Notes under the pieces: model-generated
What the model was told of the DNA's origin: nothing
The model's input: only the letters and a program-made list of their open reading frames with translations
The model's database searches: none
Part shown: positions 32,505-32,920 of the stretch, piece after piece
Layout: each line of letters begins with the position of its first letter
How positions within the stretch are numbered: the stretch's first letter is position 1
Translations under genes and position numbers: made by a program
Assembly (NCBI GenBank): GCA_030682075.1
Contig: JAUXRH010000005.1
Coordinates: 1 to 32,920 of the forward strand
Direction of reading: 5' to 3'
Length of the DNA: 32,920 bases
From: Nitrosomonas sp.
GTDB taxonomy: Bacteria > Pseudomonadota > Gammaproteobacteria > Burkholderiales > Nitrosomonadaceae

Positions 32505-32755
32505 AAATCTACTCTAATTCCCGCTTCACCAGCAAATTGGTTAAATGCGATAAACGACGCTATCGTGTCAATTGTTTTCAGTATTTCTGATACTTCAATG
32601 CTCCTGTTATGTCGTTTTCTCAAGGGCTGAATGATTCATATCATGCGGGTTCAGGCTCACTTTGCAGGCAAAGTTAATATTTGCAATGTTGTGGAAGGAA
32701 GCAGGCCATAATGTCTACAACCTGCTTATTGCGCTAGCAAAGTGGTTTCATTCCC

Positions 32756-32920
32756 AGGAGTCTGTCGGACTTAAGTGATCGTAGCGAGCAAAGTGGGAAA
32801 GCGAGGACAGATTGGCCGGATTTTGAGGCGCATAGTCATTCTATGCAACGAAAAATCAGGGTAATATGAACCGCTTGTCCCATTTGCGCCGTAGATCAAC
32901 CTTAAGTCCGACAGACTCCT
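32756..32920. mobile_element. Palindromic MITE-like element (165 bp), possibly continuing beyond the window
   Basis: Perfect 20-bp terminal inverted repeats AGGAGTCTGTCGGACTTAAG (32756-32775) / CTTAAGTCCGACAGACTCCT (32901-32920). The interior is also imperfectly self-complementary up to GCATAG-tcatt-CTATGC (32830-32846), centred at 32838, the midpoint. No ORF. Confidence 0.85.

Follow-up and report, generated by a model that had tools for sequence, protein, structure and literature searches.

A 165-bp palindromic repeat of Nitrosomonas shares its ends and target with co-resident IS1182 elements and retains a covarying hairpin across phyla

MITEs are normally held to need their ends only. Among palindromic repeats of bacteria, ERIC/IRU sequences are long imperfect palindromes located between genes at high copy number, and the enterobacterial ERIC, which measures about 127 bp, is carried by E. 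coli genomes. Palindromic bacterial MITEs have been listed (PMC3733652), and REPs are 20-40 bp sequences with a terminal GTAG tag, REP/REPIN sequences being linked to RAYT transposases (PMC3733652, PMC3116915). In the archaeon Methanosarcina acetivorans, IS1182-related MITEs linked to ISMac2 have been described with lengths of 160 and 169 bp, repeats of 25-26 bp, and, for one of them, a 4-bp direct repeat (PMC3852290). For ISPse1, a member of the IS1182 family, a 4-bp direct repeat has been published as well (PMC3281130).

The palindrome analyzed in this study is located at the end of the window, which is the whole contig G000:C81 (positions 1-32920; 32,920 bp) of a 2.73-Mb Nitrosomonas genome comprising 340 contigs. 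Positions 32756..32920 (+) form a complete, near-perfect 165-bp palindromic element, the last base of which is the contig end, and copies elsewhere have the same length. The outer 20-bp arms, AGGAGTCTGTCGGACTTAAG (left terminal repeat, 32756..32775, +) and CTTAAGTCCGACAGACTCCT (right terminal repeat, 32901..32920, -, where the contig stops), pair at 20/20 positions; the inner arms pair with mismatches, and the center reads GCATAG-tcatt-CTATGC. The DNA fold of the element reached -51.2 kcal/mol, compared with -17.9 +/- 3.0 kcal/mol for shuffled sequences (z = -11; 0/200 shuffles as good), in agreement with the single hairpin with 20-bp ends proposed in the original prediction. The apical stem-loop, CATAG-TCATT-CTATG (32831..32845, +), was identified from this fold, and its pairs covary among copies. 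To the left, CC at 32754..32755 (no strand assigned) corresponds to a target remnant with the consensus CT, based on flank counts and empty sites at CTAG, while the right flank lies beyond the contig. The palindrome would add a stem-loop of very high stability some 250 bp downstream of an HD-GYP gene, on the same strand. When the window was scanned for perfect inverted repeats of 15 bp within 300 bp, only three places were found, this palindrome among them. A perfect 18-bp inverted repeat, the arms of which are separated by about 200 bp, was observed at 716-951.

Like ERIC/IRU and other palindromic bacterial MITEs, the element is a long imperfect palindrome with a high copy number and a mostly intergenic location (109/120 copies, based on crude ORF calling). 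Identity with ERIC was rejected, as the family consensus matched none of 5,426 E. coli genomes. The element also resembles REP/REPIN sequences as a short palindromic extragenic mobile repeat, but it is 165 bp in length with AGGAG/IS1182 ends and inserts at CTAG, and its GTAG is located in an internal loop rather than at the terminus; a link to REPs based on this motif was therefore rejected on length and position. The ISMac2-linked MITEs are of the same kind, size, and IS family, a likeness drawn from their description, although they are archaeal, and the available part of that description contains no cross-phylum conserved hairpin (PMC3852290). IS1182-related MITEs are already known from an archaeon, whereas our search of an open literature library found no description of this palindrome family.

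A pattern search for the 20-bp end with up to two mismatches gave 88 + 74 = 162 matches in the Nitrosomonas genome and 0 for the reversed control pattern. These pattern counts correspond to an estimated 80 or so palindrome copies, including a few IS ends, and at least 32 complete copies were scored with 93-100% identity. The element is multi-copy, and the single-copy case raised against a repeat family in the original prediction does not hold. Many contigs of this genome stop 117-143 bp inside a copy, indicating that the repeat breaks the assembly and that the window edge is one such break, as had been suspected from its position at the last base. Additionally, a second repeat with the ends GGGC[A/G][C/T]CTCTAAAAATTC, absent from the window, was observed inserted at TTAAG inside palindrome ends, producing nested mosaics (L039 1501-2826 in G000:C44, L032 1181, and L062 695).

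The two flanking bases were CT on the left and AG on the right in 102 cases; C occupied position -2 in 157/171 and G position +2 in 153/168 cases, with no conservation further out. Empty sites were identified both in the same genome, where a copy in C99 lies in repeated sequence with an intact version in C21 (GAAGCT/AGAGAAG), and among relatives, where a copy in G020 occupies a site that reads CTTCT/AGCTTG or a close variant in G016 and others. Joining the flanks recovered these uninterrupted loci, indicating that insertion is precise. CTAG was present on both sides in 89/170 cases, although, with both target and ends palindromic, a duplication cannot be told apart from its absence: "165 bp, no duplication" and "161 bp between duplicated CTAG" are one sequence with CTAG as the target, and the first two bases of the left terminal repeat belong to the target if CTAG is counted as a target duplication. 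Four non-CTAG sites had identical direct repeats, and the outer target bases deviated (CC..AG, CT..GG) at a higher frequency than would be expected of a simple 4-bp duplication. Where sites departed from CTAG, the change was mostly from T to C to the left of the element and from A to G to its right, turning CTAGG into CCAGG; this shift resembles the bias of very-short-patch repair that is known from E. coli.

The terminal repeats and CT/AG flanks of the palindrome were shared with IS1182 elements (NF033551) in several genomes. In G020, an intact 450-aa transposase begins about 80 bp inside CT/AGGAGTCTGTCGGACTTAAAGC, and a 500-aa homologue with 34% identity was found in G136; both exceeded the NCBIfam IS1182 cut-off (NF033551) and had DDE transposase domains. 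Fragments of the G020 IS are also present in the Nitrosomonas genome under study, its left end in contig C155 and a matching right end, CCCGACAGACTCCT/AG, in C21; another matching right end, TATCCGACAGACTCCT/AG, was found in G019. The right end of the G020 element, the best copy, is missing, so that left and right ends could be read only in separate genomes or contigs. In G136, a member of another taxonomic family, the palindromes end in AGGAGGCTGTCCGATAATGA and the resident 1.7-kb IS1182 ends in AGGAGGCTGTCCGAGAA on both sides, with the variant end AGGAGGCTGTCCGA common to the palindromes and the IS; the flanks of this IS copy are TAT/ATA, not CT/AG. This IS1182 (L366, G136:C143, 1345-3087) is centered in the inverted repeat AGAACCACCTATAGGTGGTTCT, its target being TATA-like and not CTAG. 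Furthermore, a profile search in the palindrome-bearing genomes G085 and G215 located IS1182 transposase genes starting just inside CT/AGGAG[T/C]CTGTCGGACTT, and IS1182 ends are flanked by CT/AG in Nitrosomonas, G085, and G215. In C277 of the studied genome, a palindrome is inserted exactly where the right end of an IS1182 meets its flank, at the CT/AG boundary.

In a sample of the phylum, other ends were found on most full-length IS1182 elements, indicating that only a subgroup is the partner of the palindrome. Matches to the transposase of this subgroup (E <= 1e-25) were detected in 12 of 30 palindrome-bearing genomes and not in all, a count to be read with the loss of repeats from draft genomes in mind, and no transposase was found beside solitary ends in the loci retrieved from other taxa, for which the profile search supplied the link. 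IS1182 measures about 1.7 kb and contains a DDE transposase gene (G136 copy), whereas the palindrome, at only 165 bp, has no gene, and the IS1182 ends compared bear no relation to its interior; a covariance model of the hairpin run over IS1182 loci revealed no similarity beyond the ends. The palindrome is present in high copy number, has precise empty sites, and shares its ends and target with co-resident IS1182. It is therefore very probably a non-autonomous derivative of the IS1182 subgroup, that is, a palindromic MITE mobilized in trans, which supports the MITE or palindromic repeat family put forward originally. In this process, the IS1182 DDE transposase would bind the terminal repeats of about 14-19 bp and would insert the palindrome in trans at CTAG, so that a CTAG remains on either side.

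Matches were found in 15 of the 61 genomes searched, the studied genome included, and those in relatives were mostly 70-84% identical with the same length. An exact two-ended pattern permitting total lengths of 151 to 179 bp matched at least 114 contigs of named species, and the lengths bunched at 163-165 bp despite this far wider range. Among the matches listed were Nitrosomonas, Massilia, Undibacterium, Sulfuricella, Marinobacter, Endozoicomonas, Thioalkalivibrio, Hydrogenovibrio, Thiodiazotropha, Mariprofundus, Geotalea, and Desulfobulbaceae, as well as single records labelled Nitrospirae, Lentisphaeria, and Verrucomicrobiia, for which binning errors in single MAGs are possible. Copies measuring 162-166 bp are found in Gamma-, Beta-, Zeta-, and Delta-proteobacteria, as well as in single records from other groups. 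Of 299 genomes from the phylum, the covariance model located copies in 52, with a concentration in a single family. A search with a hand-written family consensus found one complete copy between genes on a conjugative Pseudomonas plasmid, BLAST of the window sequence gave no match in plasmids or phages, and no copy was found in viral contigs.

We constructed a structural alignment of 66 divergent copies with a median identity of 63%; the outer repeat was left out as evidence for conservation because it is partly conserved through the way the copies were collected. At 45 of the 61 pairs, both sides had changed with pairing kept. Paired cells amounted to 93.3%, compared with 74.5% when partners were shuffled and at most 46.4% when they were slid, and double-change cells numbered 724 versus 212. 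The inner arms paired at 91% with their own partner and at 63% with partners from other copies. These results show that the hairpin has been conserved by compensatory change across phyla. In addition, three asymmetric internal loops, unpaired on our reading of the alignment, were conserved: loop 1, with the consensus GTAGCGA opposite GCAGTA (in the window, GTAGCGA at 32781..32787, +, also from reading the paired arms, and GCCGTA at 32888-32893); loop 2, AGGACAG opposite ATGGACC (AGGACAG at 32804..32810, +, and ATGAACC at 32866-32872); and loop 3, GAGGCG opposite TAACG (GAGGCG at 32825..32830, +, and CAACG, often TAACG elsewhere, at 32846-32850). Distances between landmarks were almost fixed, at 22 nt and 19 nt, each in 63/66 copies, for the innermost arms. 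The rest of the 165 bp is also under constraint, with a fixed hairpin geometry and a stem sequence that drifts through compensating changes.

The two strands of the hairpin were not equivalent when the elements were oriented by their internal loops. Variable pairs included 216 G·T and 45 A·C mismatches (0.66 and 0.24 of the expectation from column composition, respectively), and G·T exceeded A·C in 27 of 33 differing pairs. Related copies do not count as independent, however, and part of this asymmetry could come from strand-specific mutation. One strand, designated strand A, folded better than its complement in 62/66 copies with RNA energies and in 65/66 with DNA energies. In the window, strand A is the + strand, the same strand as the upstream HD-GYP gene, and the covariance model scored 162.5 bits on it and 83.4 bits on the - strand. 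The excess of G·T together with the better folding of strand A would not be produced by a structure with equal action on the two strands of duplex DNA. Across copies, no orientation bias was found relative to genes or to GC skew, indicating that the asymmetry is a property of the element itself rather than of the sequence around it.

Taken together, the strand asymmetry and the covarying fold suggest selection on a single-stranded hairpin. The reading we consider most likely, with about an even chance of being correct, is that strand A matters in single-stranded form, whether transcribed or as a ssDNA hairpin, be it for the propagation of the element or for its tolerance by the host. More tentatively, and with somewhat less confidence, the palindromes might represent a cross-phylum family of mobile hairpins in which one strand is selected as a single-stranded fold (RNA or ssDNA) with three conserved loops and a fixed geometry, that is, an IS1182 parasite whose propagation or survival depends on a folded nucleic acid in addition to its ends. 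Such selection should be unnecessary for an ordinary MITE, and the retention of the interior shape across very divergent bacteria, with one strand favored, implies a second layer of function.

The strand-asymmetric conserved fold, the internal GTAG motifs, and an insertion equally readable as lacking a target duplication would also suit a hairpin moved by another enzyme, such as a single-strand (HUH) transposase that recognizes the fold, as RAYTs with REPs, the match to IS1182 ends then reflecting a shared target or a later adoption. We regard this as improbable, since ends and target match IS1182 in several families, palindrome and IS1182 ends vary together in G136, and there is no GC-skew bias. 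A conserved cellular non-coding RNA or mRNA 3' structure, repeated by chance, is more doubtful still: a covarying fold with conserved loops in mostly intergenic copies could be expected of such an RNA, but the precise empty sites, the recent near-identical copies, the lack of orientation preference relative to genes, and the absence of any match in Rfam 15 at E up to 1 speak against it. An assembly artefact joining both ends of a full IS with its interior lost, a misassembly that the original prediction had named as a counter-case and that the location of the window copy at a contig edge might suggest, can be practically dismissed, because many complete copies are embedded within contigs, with unique sequence to their left and right, and the same length was found in the one-contig genomes G020, G043, and G134 and in a complete plasmid.

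The palindrome family provides many natural substrates for the study of IS1182, and it fragments assemblies of Nitrosomonas and, where it is abundant, probably of other lineages as well. Several variant forms were also observed. Shortened palindromes with intact ends and internal deletions measured 84 bp (L122, G008:C3), 89 bp (L123, G033:C9), and, in G019, 120 bp (L124) and 111 bp (L125). Chimeric palindromes in G019 (L142 in C174 and L118 in C93) had CTGTCGGACTTAAG (or CTGTCGAACTTAAG) at one end and CTGTCCGAGAATAG at the other, which suggests recombination between subfamilies. In contig C247 of the studied genome, a helix-turn-helix frame resembling a transposase N-terminus (L057, 504-863) was split by a palindrome copy, and this interrupted frame adjoins ORFs resembling ribosomal proteins S12 and S7.
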